Shown here: in pieces, positions 49,084 through 54,770 of the stretch
Layout: every line of letters starts with the position of its first letter
Numbering within the stretch: the first letter of the stretch is position 1
NCBI GenBank assembly: GCA_024644585.1
Contig: JAHEHM010000008.1
Location: 1 to 64,000, forward strand
Reading direction: 5' to 3'
Length of the DNA stretch: 64,000 bases
Origin: Porticoccaceae bacterium
Lineage (GTDB): Bacteria > Pseudomonadota > Gammaproteobacteria > Pseudomonadales > Porticoccaceae
Translations under genes and position numbers: made by a program
The notes under the pieces: generated by a model
Told to the model about the DNA's origin: nothing
The model's database searches: none
The model's input: only the letters and a program-made list of their open reading frames with translations

Positions 49084-50066
49084 GCCGCTCGCTCCTCAAG
49101 CGAATAATTATCAAAAAACTCTCGAAGTTGCTGTTGCTGTTGCTCGCAGGTTTCAAGTTGATTGAAAATTTTGGTAAAAGCTTTGCCGTCGGTTAACCAG
49201 CTGCTGTACCAGCCAATATGCTTTCTAGAGATACGCACGCCGCCCACTTCGCCATAGAACTCATGCAGATCTGTGAGGTGTCTAGTCATAACCGCACCTA
49301 CCTCTGCAATGCTCGGCTCGGGGAGAAGTTCAGCATGCTCAAGATAATGATTAATCTGATTGAAAATCCAGGGATTACCCTGAGCGCCGCGGCCAATCAT
49401 TACCGCACTAGCGCCGGTTTTTTTGAGTACAGTTTCAGCCTGTGCGGCACAGGTGATATCGCCATTGGCAAATACCGGAATTGAGATAGCATCAACTACC
49501 TTAGCGATGCTGTCATATTCTACTTCGCCAACAAAACGACAGGCCTTAGTCCGCCCGTGCACTGCCAGTGCCTGAATGCCAGACTGTTCAGCAATGGTAG
49601 CAATTTCGGTAGCATTGCGATTCTGTCTATCCCAGCCCGTGCGAATTTTTAAGGTTACCGGAACATCCACAGCGTTAACTACCGCAGTTAAGATGCTCTC
49701 AACCAGTTGAGGGTCTTTTAACAGTGCCGAACCAGCGGCGCGTTTACAAACCTTCTTAGCAGGGCAGCCCATGTTGATATCAATAATTTCTGCACCCTGA
49801 GCTACATTAAATTGCGCAGCTTCAGCCATCATCTGTGGATCATAGCCGGCAATTTGAACGGATTTTGGTGAGGGTTCGTTACCGAATTGAATCCGCAGAC
49901 GAGATTTTCGCGTTGACCATGTGCTCGGATCAGAGGCCACCATTTCGGAAACAACCAGCCCAGCGCCCATCTCTCGACAGAGCTGACGGAAAGGCAGGTC
50001 AGTCACCCCAGCCATAGGGGCTAGAACGGTTTTGCCATGTATTTGATAGGGGCCAATAGTAAACAA
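49080..50066 (-). CDS. dusB: tRNA-dihydrouridine synthase B
   Basis: VLAPMAGVTDLPFRQLC; DINMGCPAKKVCKRAAGSALL; upstream of fis. Confidence 0.97.
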   Translation of the reverse strand: MFTIGPYQIHGKTVLAPMAGVTDLPFRQLCREMGAGLVVSEMVASDPSTWSTRKSRLRIQFGNEPSPKSVQIAGYDPQMMAEAAQFNVAQGAEIIDINMGCPAKKVCKRAAGSALLKDPQLVESILTAVVNAVDVPVTLKIRTGWDRQNRNATEIATIAEQSGIQALAVHGRTKACRFVGEVEYDSIAKVVDAISIPVFANGDITCAAQAETVLKKTGASAVMIGRGAQGNPWIFNQINHYLEHAELLPEPSIAEVGAVMTRHLTDLHEFYGEVGGVRISRKHIGWYSSWLTDGKAFTKIFNQLETCEQQQQQLREFFDNYSLEERAA

Positions 50067-50154
50067 ATGAAAATCTTCGTTAAAATTTAGGTTTAACCGT
50101 TAAATTGAAAACCAAAATCCATTTGGCAAGGGGGAGCAATCATACTCCTAACTG

Positions 50155-50177
50155 AGTTGATTAAAAAGTGATCAACT
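50155..50177. promoter_or_regulatory. Inverted repeat upstream of the Roadblock cassette
   Basis: AGTTGAT-N9-ATCAACT. Confidence 0.35.
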
Positions 50178-50324
50178 TAAAAAATTGCACAATTACTTGA
50201 ATAAGTTTTCTATAAAAAAAACCAAGGAAAAAAAATCTCAAAATATACTGCTAAAATGAAAGGGAATAGGATGACAATAAAAGTCTGTCAAAGAGCGTTT
50301 TGGGGATACACCTAAGGAGAGCCG

Positions 50325-50399
50325 ATGGATTGGCAGAGTGACATAAGCTCACAGAGCAAGAAGATGGAATCATGGAAGAAGATGTCATTGATCAAATAA
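50325..50399 (+). CDS. Possible leader peptide (MDWQSDISSQSKKMESWKKMSLIK)
   Basis: Strong SD (CCTAAGGAGAGCCG) before ATG; overlaps the next ORF in another frame. Confidence 0.35.
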   Translation: MDWQSDISSQSKKMESWKKMSLIK

Positions 50400-50710
50400 T
50401 GCAGATCAAGCAAATAAAAGGTCTTATACAAACCAATACAGAGGGTGAAGATGTTGCCTCAACCATTGAAGATGAGCAACTGGCGCATTTTATGAGATTC
50501 CTTGTTGGCTACGCTCCGCTTTTTGAAAAAACTGCAGAGCTAGGAGCCATTAGAAGCATTATCTTAACTAGCAATAAAAACAACAATCTGGGTGTTTTTA
50601 TAGGTAAGGAGCACAGTCTGGGCGTGCTTTTTGCCAGAGGCTGTTCAATAAAAAAACTGTTTTCACAGATCAAAGCCTATCTTAATAAACTGTCGATTGG
50701 AGACGCATAA
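50372..50710 (+). CDS. Roadblock/LC7-like protein
   Basis: IMQIKQIKGLIQTNTEGEDVAS...LAHFMRFLVGYAPLFEKTAELGAIRSIILTS...HSLGVLFARG fits the Roadblock pattern. Confidence 0.6.
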   Translation: MEEDVIDQIMQIKQIKGLIQTNTEGEDVASTIEDEQLAHFMRFLVGYAPLFEKTAELGAIRSIILTSNKNNNLGVFIGKEHSLGVLFARGCSIKKLFSQIKAYLNKLSIGDA

Positions 50711-51453
50711 TGTCCAAACTTGACAGAGAAAAGATTCTCGACGAGCTGGTATCTTTTGAGGGTATAAGTCATAGCTGCATATACCAAAATGAGCAGATTT
50801 TAGCCTCGACATTCCCATCGATAATACAGGACAAATTGTCAGGTATGGGGCGCTTTATCGATAAAATATTTTCATCTGCCCATGCAATAGACCAGGCACA
50901 TGACGAAATCCATATTGAATTAGAAGAAAATACACTGATTACATACCGGGTAAATGATGACTTTTTGCTTATGTTAATGGCAACTAAGGGGATCAATTTA
51001 TCTCTGGTTTACATGACCGTCAAAGCCATTGAAAAAAGCGTAAAGCTACATGGTTTACCACCACCTAAAAATACAGCCTCTATACCCGTTCCCACAGAAG
51101 TCAGTAAAGAAAAAAAAGCGCCTAATGATTACCGGAAAGAAGACATACCCGTTTGGCCTCTAAAGGGTGAATCAGAGGATGCGCCAAGCAAATTGACCAG
51201 CGAGCAAAAAGTTGAGCTTTACACCAATGGACTCAAGAAGATGTTGTTAGAGAGCTTTGGACCTGTTGGAGACATTATTTTTGAAGAAGCCTTACAGCGA
51301 TGGCAGGCTTCATATCCGCTAGAAGTAGAAAGTATAGCTAAGTTAGTCGACCTTATAACGCAAGAAATTGATAGTAAAAATGAAAAGCGTTCATTTTTTA
51401 ATAAAGCGGCAAGATTTATTCGCAAACCATTATCGGAGATAGGCAATGAGTAG
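50710..51453 (+). CDS. Second Roadblock-like protein with extra C-terminal helical domain
   Basis: ILDELVSFEGISHSCIYQNEQILAS...MGRFIDKIF...LLMLMATKGINLSLVYM Roadblock-like N-half; C-terminal LLESFGPVGDIIFEEALQRW; TAATG coupling to the upstream gene. Confidence 0.55.
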   Translation: MSKLDREKILDELVSFEGISHSCIYQNEQILASTFPSIIQDKLSGMGRFIDKIFSSAHAIDQAHDEIHIELEENTLITYRVNDDFLLMLMATKGINLSLVYMTVKAIEKSVKLHGLPPPKNTASIPVPTEVSKEKKAPNDYRKEDIPVWPLKGESEDAPSKLTSEQKVELYTNGLKKMLLESFGPVGDIIFEEALQRWQASYPLEVESIAKLVDLITQEIDSKNEKRSFFNKAARFIRKPLSEIGNE

Positions 51454-52636
51454 CATTCGCTACAAAATATTATCACTATGCTTAGTACTGGCCATAGTGC
51501 CAACAGTAGCCGTAAGCGCCTATGGCGTGTACTCCACAATTAACGCATTGCAGCTCAACAGCTTAAAGGAGCAGGACACTAAAATATCCCTGCTAGGCAA
51601 GCAGTTAGACAGGGCTTTGTCAGCGGTTAAGTCTGATATATTGTATTTTAGATATTCGACATCAATGCAAGATCTCATTATAAAATCCGCAGACCCAAAG
51701 CTAACTTTTGAGCAAAGAATGGCAGCCCGAGGCCGATTGGCTAAAGATTTTCTAGCATTCTCAGAACAGCGACCTATGTATCATCAGCTGCGGTTTTTAT
51801 CGAAATATGGCAAAGAAGTTGTGCGAGTCGACAGGGTGGGTGGTAAAAGCAAAATTGTCACTCAACTGGAAGATAGAAAAGGCCGTTATTATGTGAATAA
51901 CACGCTGATATTAAAGTCAGGTGAGGTCATGGTGTCTCATCTGGATTTATATCGTGAGAACGGTAAGATCAAAGAGCCAGTAAGCCCAGTCATTCGCTAT
52001 GGCACCCCAGTTTACGGAAGATATGGCAAGCTTCATGGGATACTGCTATTTAATGTATCTGCTAGTAATTTTCTTGAAACACTTCAACAATCGTCCACCA
52101 GTAAAAATGAACGCTTGGTCATGGTAGATCCTGATGGATACTATTTGCTGCACCCCGATAAAACAAAATTATGGGGCTCGCTGAGAGACAAAAATACCGG
52201 TGAAAGAATACAACAAGATCTGCCAAGTTTAGGCAAAAAAATAGTTGGCTTAAAAGGGCCAAGTTCACTGTTTGATGGAGAAAACATAATTACAGTAAAG
52301 CCCGTTGATAACGGCATTGATGATAATCGTAATTTAGGTTTTTTAGTCAACTTCATAGCAACGGATACAATATTTGAGCCTGCTATCAAGGCGCGAAAAT
52401 TTTATATTGTAGTCACATTACTGACATTACTTTTGGCGACGGTAATTGTTTTAATTATGGCCAGAAAGATTACGCGACCTATTGTCGACCTCACTGTTGC
52501 AGCAGAGGATATGAGCAAGGGCAATATTGAAACCCCGGTTATTATTGAAACCAATGATGAAATTCATGAATTATCAAAATCCTTAGATAGATTGCGTAAA
52601 TCTGTAAAAATATTAATGACGAAATACAGAAGCTAA
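51446..52636 (+). CDS. Cache-HAMP transmembrane receptor lacking an output domain
   Basis: N-terminal TM, dCache-like ectodomain (VMVDPDGYYLLHPDKTKLWG), second TM, HAMP (MARKITRPIVDLTVAAEDMSKGNIETPV); ends shortly after HAMP. Confidence 0.8.
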   Translation: MSSIRYKILSLCLVLAIVPTVAVSAYGVYSTINALQLNSLKEQDTKISLLGKQLDRALSAVKSDILYFRYSTSMQDLIIKSADPKLTFEQRMAARGRLAKDFLAFSEQRPMYHQLRFLSKYGKEVVRVDRVGGKSKIVTQLEDRKGRYYVNNTLILKSGEVMVSHLDLYRENGKIKEPVSPVIRYGTPVYGRYGKLHGILLFNVSASNFLETLQQSSTSKNERLVMVDPDGYYLLHPDKTKLWGSLRDKNTGERIQQDLPSLGKKIVGLKGPSSLFDGENIITVKPVDNGIDDNRNLGFLVNFIATDTIFEPAIKARKFYIVVTLLTLLLATVIVLIMARKITRPIVDLTVAAEDMSKGNIETPVIIETNDEIHELSKSLDRLRKSVKILMTKYRS

Positions 52637-52734
52637 TGATTTTTCTACTATCGCTGTACCCTCATTATTTGGACAAAGCAGGGGATTAAGATATAGCTGA
52701 AATCATATTTGGGTAGTTTTCTCAGGGAGGAGAA

Positions 52735-53844
52735 ATGACGAAAATACTATTTGTTATTGTTTTTTTGGTAATGGTTGTCGGAGCCCTGTTTTCATGGTTT
52801 TACCAACCCCTGATGGGTGTTGTATCAGTCTCTGATTTAGACGAAAAACTTAAGGTAGGTTTTATTTATCTGGGTCCCCCTGGTGACCACGGTTGGACCT
52901 ATCAGCATGATCAAGGGCGATTAGCACTAGAGCGCGACCTAGGTGATCAAGTAGAAACTGTTTATGTCGAAGGTGTCCCAGAAGAGGGTCCTGCCGCTGA
53001 GGAAGCCCTAGAGCGACTCGTGAATGACGGCGCAAAGCTTATTTTCACAACATCATTTGGCTATATGGAATCCACCTTAAAAGTTGCCAAGCGATACCCC
53101 CATGTAAAATTCGAGCATGCCACCGGTTATAAAAGAAGTGAAAATGTTGCCACCTATTCATCGCGCTTTTATGAAGGTCGTTATGTCAGTGGGCAAATTG
53201 CAGGGCACCTATCCAAGACAGGCAAAGCTGGCTATGTTGCCTCTTTCCCCATCCCCGAAGTCATGCGCGGAATCAATGCATTTTTACTAGGCGCCCAGTC
53301 GGTTAATCCAGAATTTAGAATGAAAGTTATTTGGGTGAATTCTTGGTTTGACCCCGATAAAGAAGCGAATGCAGCCAAAAAATTAATAGATCAGGGCGCA
53401 GATATTTTGACCCAGCATACAGATTCCACAGCGGTGGTTCAGATTGCTGAAGAAAACAAAGTACTTGCCTTTGGTCAGGCCTCGGATATGACACCATTTG
53501 CACCGGACTACCTGCTGACCTCAATTATTAATAACTGGGGAGACTACTATACTGCAAGAACCAAGGCTGTACTTGATGGCAGCTGGTTTAGCACGGATAC
53601 CTTTGGCGGTATGGATGTGAATATGGTGGTAATGGGAGCTTTTAAAAATATGCCCGAACAGGTAAAGCGCTCAGCAAAAGCAACGACAAAAGCCCTTGCT
53701 AGTGGGGGAGTGCATCCTTTTGTTGGACCCATTATTAAACAAGATGGCACTACGGTGGTTACTGAGGGTGAGAAATTATCTCTAAAGGCTCTGTTAGGTA
53801 TGGATTGGTATGTTCAGGGCGTTGATGTAGTGGGTCTGAAATAG
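52735..53844 (+). CDS. BMP/Med family substrate-binding protein
   Basis: KVGFIYLGPPGDHGWTYQHDQGRLALE; GAKLIFTTSFGYM; GYVASFPIPEVMRGINAFLLGAQSVNP; SD GGGAGGAG. Confidence 0.88.
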   Translation: MTKILFVIVFLVMVVGALFSWFYQPLMGVVSVSDLDEKLKVGFIYLGPPGDHGWTYQHDQGRLALERDLGDQVETVYVEGVPEEGPAAEEALERLVNDGAKLIFTTSFGYMESTLKVAKRYPHVKFEHATGYKRSENVATYSSRFYEGRYVSGQIAGHLSKTGKAGYVASFPIPEVMRGINAFLLGAQSVNPEFRMKVIWVNSWFDPDKEANAAKKLIDQGADILTQHTDSTAVVQIAEENKVLAFGQASDMTPFAPDYLLTSIINNWGDYYTARTKAVLDGSWFSTDTFGGMDVNMVVMGAFKNMPEQVKRSAKATTKALASGGVHPFVGPIIKQDGTTVVTEGEKLSLKALLGMDWYVQGVDVVGLK

Positions 53845-53867
53845 GAAGAGTGTTTTTAGCCCAGAAT

Positions 53868-54770
53868 TTATGGTAGTTTATTAGCTGATAGCTGCACCCA
53901 GTCATCCTCAAGCGACGCCGGAGCAAACTTGAATTGTTGCGAATAGGCGGCTGAAACCTGATCAATTTGATGGCTGAGTATGCCGGATAGGCAAAGCTGA
54001 CCCTTAGGAAGGGTAAGCGCGCTAATTTGTTGCGCTAAATCAATTAACGGCTTGGCTAAGATGTTGGCTACCATAATATCCGCTTTGGCCTCGGCCGGTA
54101 TTTGCTCTGGCAGCAGGGTTATAAGGCGTTCATCGGGTATTCCATTGCGTTGAGCATTGTCACGGCTGGCTAATAAGGCTTGGGGATCATTGTCTATTGC
54201 CCAGACTTTTTCAGCGCCTAGTAATAGGGCGGCTATACCCAAAATACCTGAGCCACAACCAAAGTCGATAACCGTTTTGCCCTCGAGAGATTGTTTTTCT
54301 AGCCAGTTGAGGCAAAGCATGGTGGTAGGATGGCTACCGGTGCCAAAAGCCAGTCCAGGGTCAAGGCGCAAGTTAACCGCATTAGGTTCAGGTGCTTCTA
54401 GCCAGCTAGGGCATATCCAGAGTCGGCCTTCAGAGCAGGGTATAGGTTTAAAGTGCTTTTTCCATTCCTGCGACCAATCCTTATCTTCCACCAACTGCCA
54501 TTCGGCTTTAATAGAAAAAGGTAATACAGCATTAATTTGTTCAATAATGGCGGCGGTATTGACTGAAGCGGAGAAAAGGGCTGTGAGTATACAGCTATCC
54601 CAGAGAGGGGTTTCCCCTACGCCGGGCTCTAAAATGGGCTGGTCTGCGGCATCTTGCAATGTCACAGAAACCGCCCCCGCATCCAAAACAGAATCTTCTA
54701 TCTGTTCCGTTTGCTGGGGCGTTGCCTCTATATTTAGTTGAATCCACTGGCTAGAATCCATAGTAAGCAC
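53868..54770 (-). CDS. prmA: Ribosomal protein L11 methyltransferase
   Basis: RLDPGLAFGTGSHPTTMLCLNWLE; VIDFGCGSGILGIAALLLGA. Confidence 0.96.
   Translation of the reverse strand: MLTMDSSQWIQLNIEATPQQTEQIEDSVLDAGAVSVTLQDAADQPILEPGVGETPLWDSCILTALFSASVNTAAIIEQINAVLPFSIKAEWQLVEDKDWSQEWKKHFKPIPCSEGRLWICPSWLEAPEPNAVNLRLDPGLAFGTGSHPTTMLCLNWLEKQSLEGKTVIDFGCGSGILGIAALLLGAEKVWAIDNDPQALLASRDNAQRNGIPDERLITLLPEQIPAEAKADIMVANILAKPLIDLAQQISALTLPKGQLCLSGILSHQIDQVSAAYSQQFKFAPASLEDDWVQLSANKLP

Follow-up and report, generated by a model that had tools for sequence, protein, structure and literature searches.

A candidate Roadblock-receptor signalling cassette lacking a detectable MglA-type GTPase in Porticoccaceae

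Gene content of the cassette

The window analysed here is a 64,000-nucleotide stretch of DNA from a Porticoccaceae bacterium (GenBank assembly GCA_024644585.1, contig JAHEHM010000008.1), and its source is a draft genome (G000) of 1.4 Mb in 66 contigs that is 91% complete. Four same-strand genes at 50372-53844 encode two Roadblock proteins, a membrane receptor and a periplasmic-type binding protein (open reading frames ORF1 to ORF4; Table 1), and together they may form a signalling pathway that derives from an MglA/Roadblock-type operon and runs without a GTPase. All four genes, predicted by a first-pass annotation, are present, as are both junctions described in it: TAATG at 50708-50712, where the ORF2 start overlaps the ORF1 stop codon, and an 8-bp overlap at 51446-51453. 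ORF3 and ORF4 are spaced by 98 bp, and the start region of ORF4 contains the conserved AGGGAGGAGAAATG.

ORF1 has no Pfam or NCBIfam match and does not reach the Pfam Robl_LC7 cut-off, and ORF2 gives only sub-threshold matches to both databases (Robl_LC7, 13.6 bits versus a cut-off of 23). This cut-off is a diagnostic aid rather than a structural definition of Roadblock: homologous Rb1 domains in GTPase fusions (described below) score 15-19.5 bits, and true Roadblock members are missed by the Pfam model (PMC4316618). Profiles built from ORF1 and ORF2 and compared with solved structures ranked Roadblock proteins first, with weak scores (E = 0.014 and 0.05). AlphaFold produced an alpha-beta2-alpha-beta3-alpha model for each protein (ORF1: predicted local distance difference test (pLDDT) 75.8, predicted template modelling (pTM) score 0.70), and Foldseek searches of the PDB returned Roadblock proteins as the best matches to both with probability 1.00, including Asgard Roadblocks, dynein roadblock, Ragulator subunits, MglB and a Streptomyces Roadblock/LC7 domain. 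The models thereby support the Roadblock fold, characteristic of Roadblock/LC7 proteins, in ORF1 and ORF2, as the first-pass annotation had proposed while naming structure prediction as the check. ORF2 had been called a small Roadblock protein, which holds for the fold but not for the whole chain, since AlphaFold also places a low-confidence linker at residues 115-160 and a C-terminal helical region at ~164-238.

The Cache-HAMP architecture originally assigned to ORF3 is confirmed by Pfam, with matches to PF21623 (HK_sensor_dom_bact, E = 2e-16) and PF00672 (HAMP, E = 1e-9), together with a match to PF02743 (dCache_1, E = 4e-10) that lies below the curated cut-off of that family. The protein stops 10 residues past the HAMP match. 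Unlike HAMP receptors with an output in cis (kinase, methyl-accepting chemotaxis protein (MCP) or cyclase), it carries neither a kinase nor a cyclase or MCP domain downstream of HAMP and hence no output domain of its own.

ORF4 matches PF02608 (Bmp, E = 6e-54, residues 39-309), placing it among the BMP/PnrA-type proteins. Over ~330 residues it is 60% identical to 3s99 from Brucella and 51% identical to AtzT (6pi5); its aligned contact positions W54, S107, F108, E175, W204, H228 and D230 are all identical to those of 3s99, whereas AtzT carries Y at the first and N and N at the last two. AtzT was crystallised with guanine (dissociation constant (KD) 110 nM; adenine, 2.5 uM), and adenine was modelled in the 3s99 structure (PMC6834077). 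Judged from these residues, ORF4 is a probable purine nucleobase binder. The nucleoside-like ligand first suggested for it therefore stands as regards the family and the purine type, but a nucleobase fits the 3s99/AtzT contacts better. The N-terminus of ORF4 is hydrophobic and, by inspection only, may remain as an uncleaved anchor instead of being removed as a signal.

The cassette is flanked by genes on the - strand, which we take from reading their translations to be dusB-fis-purH on one side and prmA-accC-accB on the other. A promoter scan stayed near chance (13 found versus 9.1 expected); terminator-like matches exceeded those in shuffled sequence (9 versus 3.9), and the + strand of the ORF3-ORF4 gap holds none. 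Rfam gave no match within 49900-54000, including the presumed promoter region, and an RNA element or a riboswitch (e.g., for purine) was rejected. A 24-codon ORF starting at 50325 was rejected as a leader peptide of ORF1, being not conserved in two relatives. Viral origin was rejected, as no ORF2 relatives were found in viral contigs and ORF1 has no significant viral fold match, and a defence system was rejected with no PADLOC match. Chance ORFs were excluded by homology and by the selection estimates given below.

Table 1. Features of the cassette locus and of the deletion scar in a close relative
Feature	Position	Strand	Basis
ORF1 (Rb1), stand-alone Roadblock protein, 112 aa	50372..50710	+	ORF call, AlphaFold, Foldseek
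ORF2, Roadblock protein (Rb2, residues 1-113) with disordered linker and C-terminal helical domain (~164-238), 247 aa	50710..51453	+	AlphaFold, Foldseek
ORF3, membrane receptor with Cache-type sensor domain and HAMP, 396 aa	51446..52636	+	Pfam
ORF4, BMP/PnrA-type binding protein, predicted purine nucleobase binder, 369 aa	52735..53844	+	Pfam, identity to 3s99/AtzT
Presumed promoter region, 305 bp between divergent dusB and ORF1 starts	50067..50371	+	
Deletion scar in G005	L073:9770-10120 (G005:C36 ~81770-82120)		

GTPase-bearing relatives and distribution

A class-level search with ORF2 recovered a homologue in another family (G406), where a 385-aa protein, in which a P-loop GTPase at the N-terminus precedes an ORF1-like domain at the C-terminus, is followed by homologues of ORF2 and ORF3. 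Scanning of the genome collection yielded eight loci, comprising five with the GTPase fusion (L041-L045, of which L041 is the G406 locus), L046, which is cut by a contig end with the Roadblock pair visible, and two Porticoccaceae loci. A weak match to the ORF2 tail in G185 (E = 0.001) was discarded as noise; nothing homologous to the cassette lies there. Alignment of the fused Roadblock domain with ORF1 starts at Met1 and spans the protein, at 33-36% identity, the ORF2 homologues at these loci are 25-32% identical to ORF2, and the Cache-type receptors of L041-L043, with the same post-HAMP end, are 37-39% identical to ORF3. The fused GTPase contains the motifs GPVG(A/S)GKTT and YGTPGQ; a single-sequence search matched it to Thermus MglA (E = 0.004) and a profile search to Ras-family structures (E down to 3e-6).

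As in the window, homologues of genes 1, 2 and (in L041-L043) 3 follow the same order with overlaps or short spacing, and the receptor ends after HAMP; the L041-L045 cassettes differ in that the gene 1 homologue lies behind an MglA/Ras-type GTPase and in that no BMP gene was seen at these loci. Because homologues of genes 1 and 2 occur with a GTPase fusion and a HAMP receptor in five other Gammaproteobacteria, genes 1-3 can be placed in a GTPase-Roadblock-Roadblock-receptor module, whose mode of action is probably that of the actinobacterial conservons, and the relation to Ras-like GTPases that the first-pass annotation had drawn from known Roadblock proteins becomes a direct one. The receptors of L041-L043 consist of Cache and HAMP, whereas those of L044 and L045 carry a Tll0287-like domain and HAMP followed by the protein end (Pfam run on L045). 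As these receptors stop shortly after HAMP whichever of the two sensors they carry, the output must act in trans. The Tll0287-like domains (L045:6719-7639 and L044:6716-7684) bear CxxCH (CLKCHGD), a motif of the heme-attachment type, and this version of the module is possibly heme- or redox-sensing.

The small GTPase encoded elsewhere in the genome, as initially envisaged, was not recovered. Three separate searches (family, single-sequence and profile) of the window genome and of G036 and G044, which also carry the cassette, were negative for an MglA-type GTPase, all three genomes being drafts that are 88-91% complete. The family search (Arf) matched only long open frames or P-loop fragments in long proteins, and matches in long open frames are expected for housekeeping GTPases. 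The best E values of the single-sequence and six-sequence-profile searches in the three carriers were 0.03 and 0.18, versus 1e-114 and 1e-96 in G406. Chance absence of the GTPase from all three drafts is unlikely.

The intact cassette was found in the window genome and in 2/50 congeners (G036 and G044), two other species whose proteins share 69-90% identity with those of the window. Neighbourhood comparison gives the same four-gene order, adjoining dusB, in all three, in agreement with the proposed joint conservation. The description as a four-gene cassette thus holds for these genomes, but the BMP protein falls outside the core conserved with the GTPase-bearing relatives. Among 399 surveyed genomes of the phylum, the window genome alone gave a match, so the module is rare. 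All four genes are under purifying selection, with ratios of non-synonymous to synonymous divergence (pN/pS) of 0.16-0.27 for ORF1, 0.27-0.30 for ORF2, 0.09-0.11 for ORF3 and 0.13-0.14 for ORF4 (dusB, 0.09-0.13), and synonymous divergence among the three carriers is high (pS ~0.43-0.58).

The nearest cassette-free congeners, G008 and G013 (DusB 88-89% identity), have prmA and dusB adjacent, so the cassette is read as an insertion into the prmA-dusB junction. The G+C content is 0.39-0.40 in ORF1-3, 0.45 in the whole window and 0.47-0.49 in the flanking purH, dusB, prmA and accC. Next to the cassette lies prmA in the window and G044, and another large ORF in G036 (L025:10531-15595); other large ORFs likewise replace prmA downstream of ORF4 in G005 (L073:10123-16827), and the site therefore seems to take up further genes. 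G005 (DusB 99%, ~96% DNA identity) carries a scar: ORF1 sequence breaks off at codon ~18 and continues as ORF4 sequence from codon ~272, which joins ORF1 to the last ~97 ORF4 codons, and the ORF1 start codon is lost with a further 18 deleted bp; as this genome is metagenome-assembled, there is a small chance that the scar has an assembly cause. It offers a natural knock-out for comparison. In another genome, a contig (G009:C159; L074:1-62) starts with apparent sequencing adapter (AGATGTGTATAAGAGACAG) fused to ORF4; G009 may therefore carry a cassette that was not assembled.

Proposed mechanism and alternatives

The interpretation builds on computed features: gene content, folds, homology to GTPase-bearing cassettes, the lack of a detectable MglA-type GTPase and the purine-site residues. 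The sister GTPase-bearing form is probably ancestral. Within it, an extracytoplasmic sensor would move HAMP, HAMP would act on the Roadblock pair, and the pair would control the GTPase, which by analogy with conservons (compared below) would be the output of the L041-L045 modules. The GTPase was apparently lost in the Porticoccaceae lineage, with the receptor and the two Roadblock proteins kept, and the Roadblock domain left behind would be gene 1 of the window version. Purine-loaded ORF4 would dock on the Cache domain of ORF3, HAMP would then alter an ORF1-ORF2 Roadblock heterodimer, and this heterodimer would serve, with no GTPase dedicated to it, as the output or adaptor in the cytoplasm. 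We assign a probability of roughly 0.55 to such a GTPase-free pathway, running from purine-loaded ORF4 through the Cache and HAMP domains to ORF1-ORF2 and derived from an MglA/Roadblock-type operon. Its strictest form, in which the purine-loaded periplasmic protein switches the receptor, the heterodimer is the direct output in a cell that has no GTPase of its own for it, and the arrangement arose by GTPase loss, is put forward only tentatively.

Several points weigh against this pathway. The Roadblock models were built on shallow alignments (8-9 sequences), and full-length ORF2 reached a pTM of 0.46. The carriers are incomplete drafts, and a GTPase could lie on a missing contig. ORF4-ORF3 docking, the Roadblock heterodimer, HAMP-to-Roadblock coupling and the GTPase-free output are steps that we infer, and gain of the GTPase by fusion is an alternative to its loss. 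Moreover, the GTPase-bearing cassettes lack ORF4, which has a separate start region, so that what ties it to the receptor is co-location in one genus.

These last features would also suit an ordinary uptake protein that serves a distant purine ATP-binding cassette (ABC) transporter and neighbours the receptor by accident, with genes 1-3 sensing another signal directly through Cache. BMP proteins usually serve ABC transporters, and the window genome has BPD_transp_2 permease genes: two of this type, together with an ABC ATPase, stand beside an ORF4 paralogue (G000:C14; L076:3283-8066), a locus that is the likely purine transporter of this genome. However, the paralogue there (50% identity) gives the transporter locus a BMP protein of its own. 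With more than one BMP protein in the genome, ORF4 could plausibly act in sensing instead of uptake. ORF4 adjoins ORF3 in all three species, and its anchor-like N-terminus also speaks against simple uptake, which we regard as a possible but doubtful account.

A normal Roadblock/GTPase system whose GTPase is encoded elsewhere in the genome appears less likely still. The draft state of the genomes would allow it, Myxococcus encodes MglA and its partners at separate loci (PMC4316618), and the Roadblock genes are kept under selection. However, the GTPase is missing from three independent carrier drafts, where P-loop fragments in long proteins are the only matches, and in the relatives it forms a single polypeptide with the homologue of gene 1 and is not unlinked. 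Least credible is a decaying remnant whose genes 1-3 no longer signal after GTPase loss: its patchy spread and the deletion of most of it in so close a relative as G005 fit decay, but the four ORFs stay open in three species with pN/pS of 0.09-0.30 at high pS, which argues that the cassette has long been maintained without a GTPase, and the constraint on ORF3 and ORF4 about equals that on dusB.

Most of what is known about bacterial Ras-like GTPase/Roadblock systems comes from Myxobacteria, Thermus and Actinobacteria, and the receptor route to them is poorly understood. The compact gammaproteobacterial module, with a HAMP-ended receptor genetically tied to two Roadblock proteins and sensor domains swapped between loci, makes it possible to test, in a small system, how HAMP signals are passed to a Roadblock/GTPase switch. 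Its Porticoccaceae version, read as a GTPase-free pathway, poses the question of Roadblock proteins signalling without their GTPase.

Comparison with known systems

The first-pass annotation regarded the cassette as undescribed, and in the open-access literature, with most subscription journals outside the search, a description of neither the fusion cassette nor the GTPase-less cassette was found. In a conservon, a single operon encodes a GTPase, a Roadblock protein and a sensor that carries HAMP (PMC4316618, PMC13343842), and the posited output is the GTPase (PMC4316618). The cassette shares with the actinobacterial conservons (CvnA-B-C-D; PMC4316618, PMC13343842) an operon with a HAMP membrane sensor and a Roadblock protein (CvnB) and no response regulator. 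However, conservons encode a histidine kinase-like CvnA, CvnB, CvnC and the GTPase CvnD, whereas here there is no kinase domain, no CvnC and no GTPase, and there are two Roadblock proteins. Lacking the CvnA-CvnB-CvnC-CvnD set, the cassette is not a conservon.

With the MglA/MglB/MglC polarity module of Myxococcus (PMC4316618, PMC9481161, PMC7949163), the cassette shares the MglB Roadblock fold, found by fold and not by sequence, and the presence of two Roadblock paralogues (MglB and MglC); Thermus MglA is matched by the GTPase of the L041-L045 relatives. It differs in having no GTPase, and its operon adds a binding protein and a dedicated membrane receptor. MglA/MglB systems pair a Roadblock protein with a GTPase that it regulates as GAP/GEF; such a GTPase is present in L041-L045 and was not found in the three draft carriers, whose cassette is on this count not a complete MglA/MglB system. 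A second MglA-type locus in G406 (L051, G406:C59) encodes a 410-aa protein, a GTPase, a 212-aa protein and a Robl_LC7 protein; its stand-alone GTPase is 48-49% identical to the fused GTPase, with the bona fide Robl_LC7 gene nearby. This arrangement resembles the Group 3 MglA systems of Wuichet and Sogaard-Andersen (PMC4316618), which have a receiver/winged-helix-like protein and no membrane receptor (PMC4316618), and no homologues of genes 1-3 were seen in L051. ORF4 shares the contact positions of 3s99 and, unlike AtzT, which is thought to serve uptake (PMC6834077), sits in a signalling operon. We regard the cassette as a variant of Roadblock/Ras-like GTPase signalling that most likely works like part of a conservon or of an MglA/MglB system.

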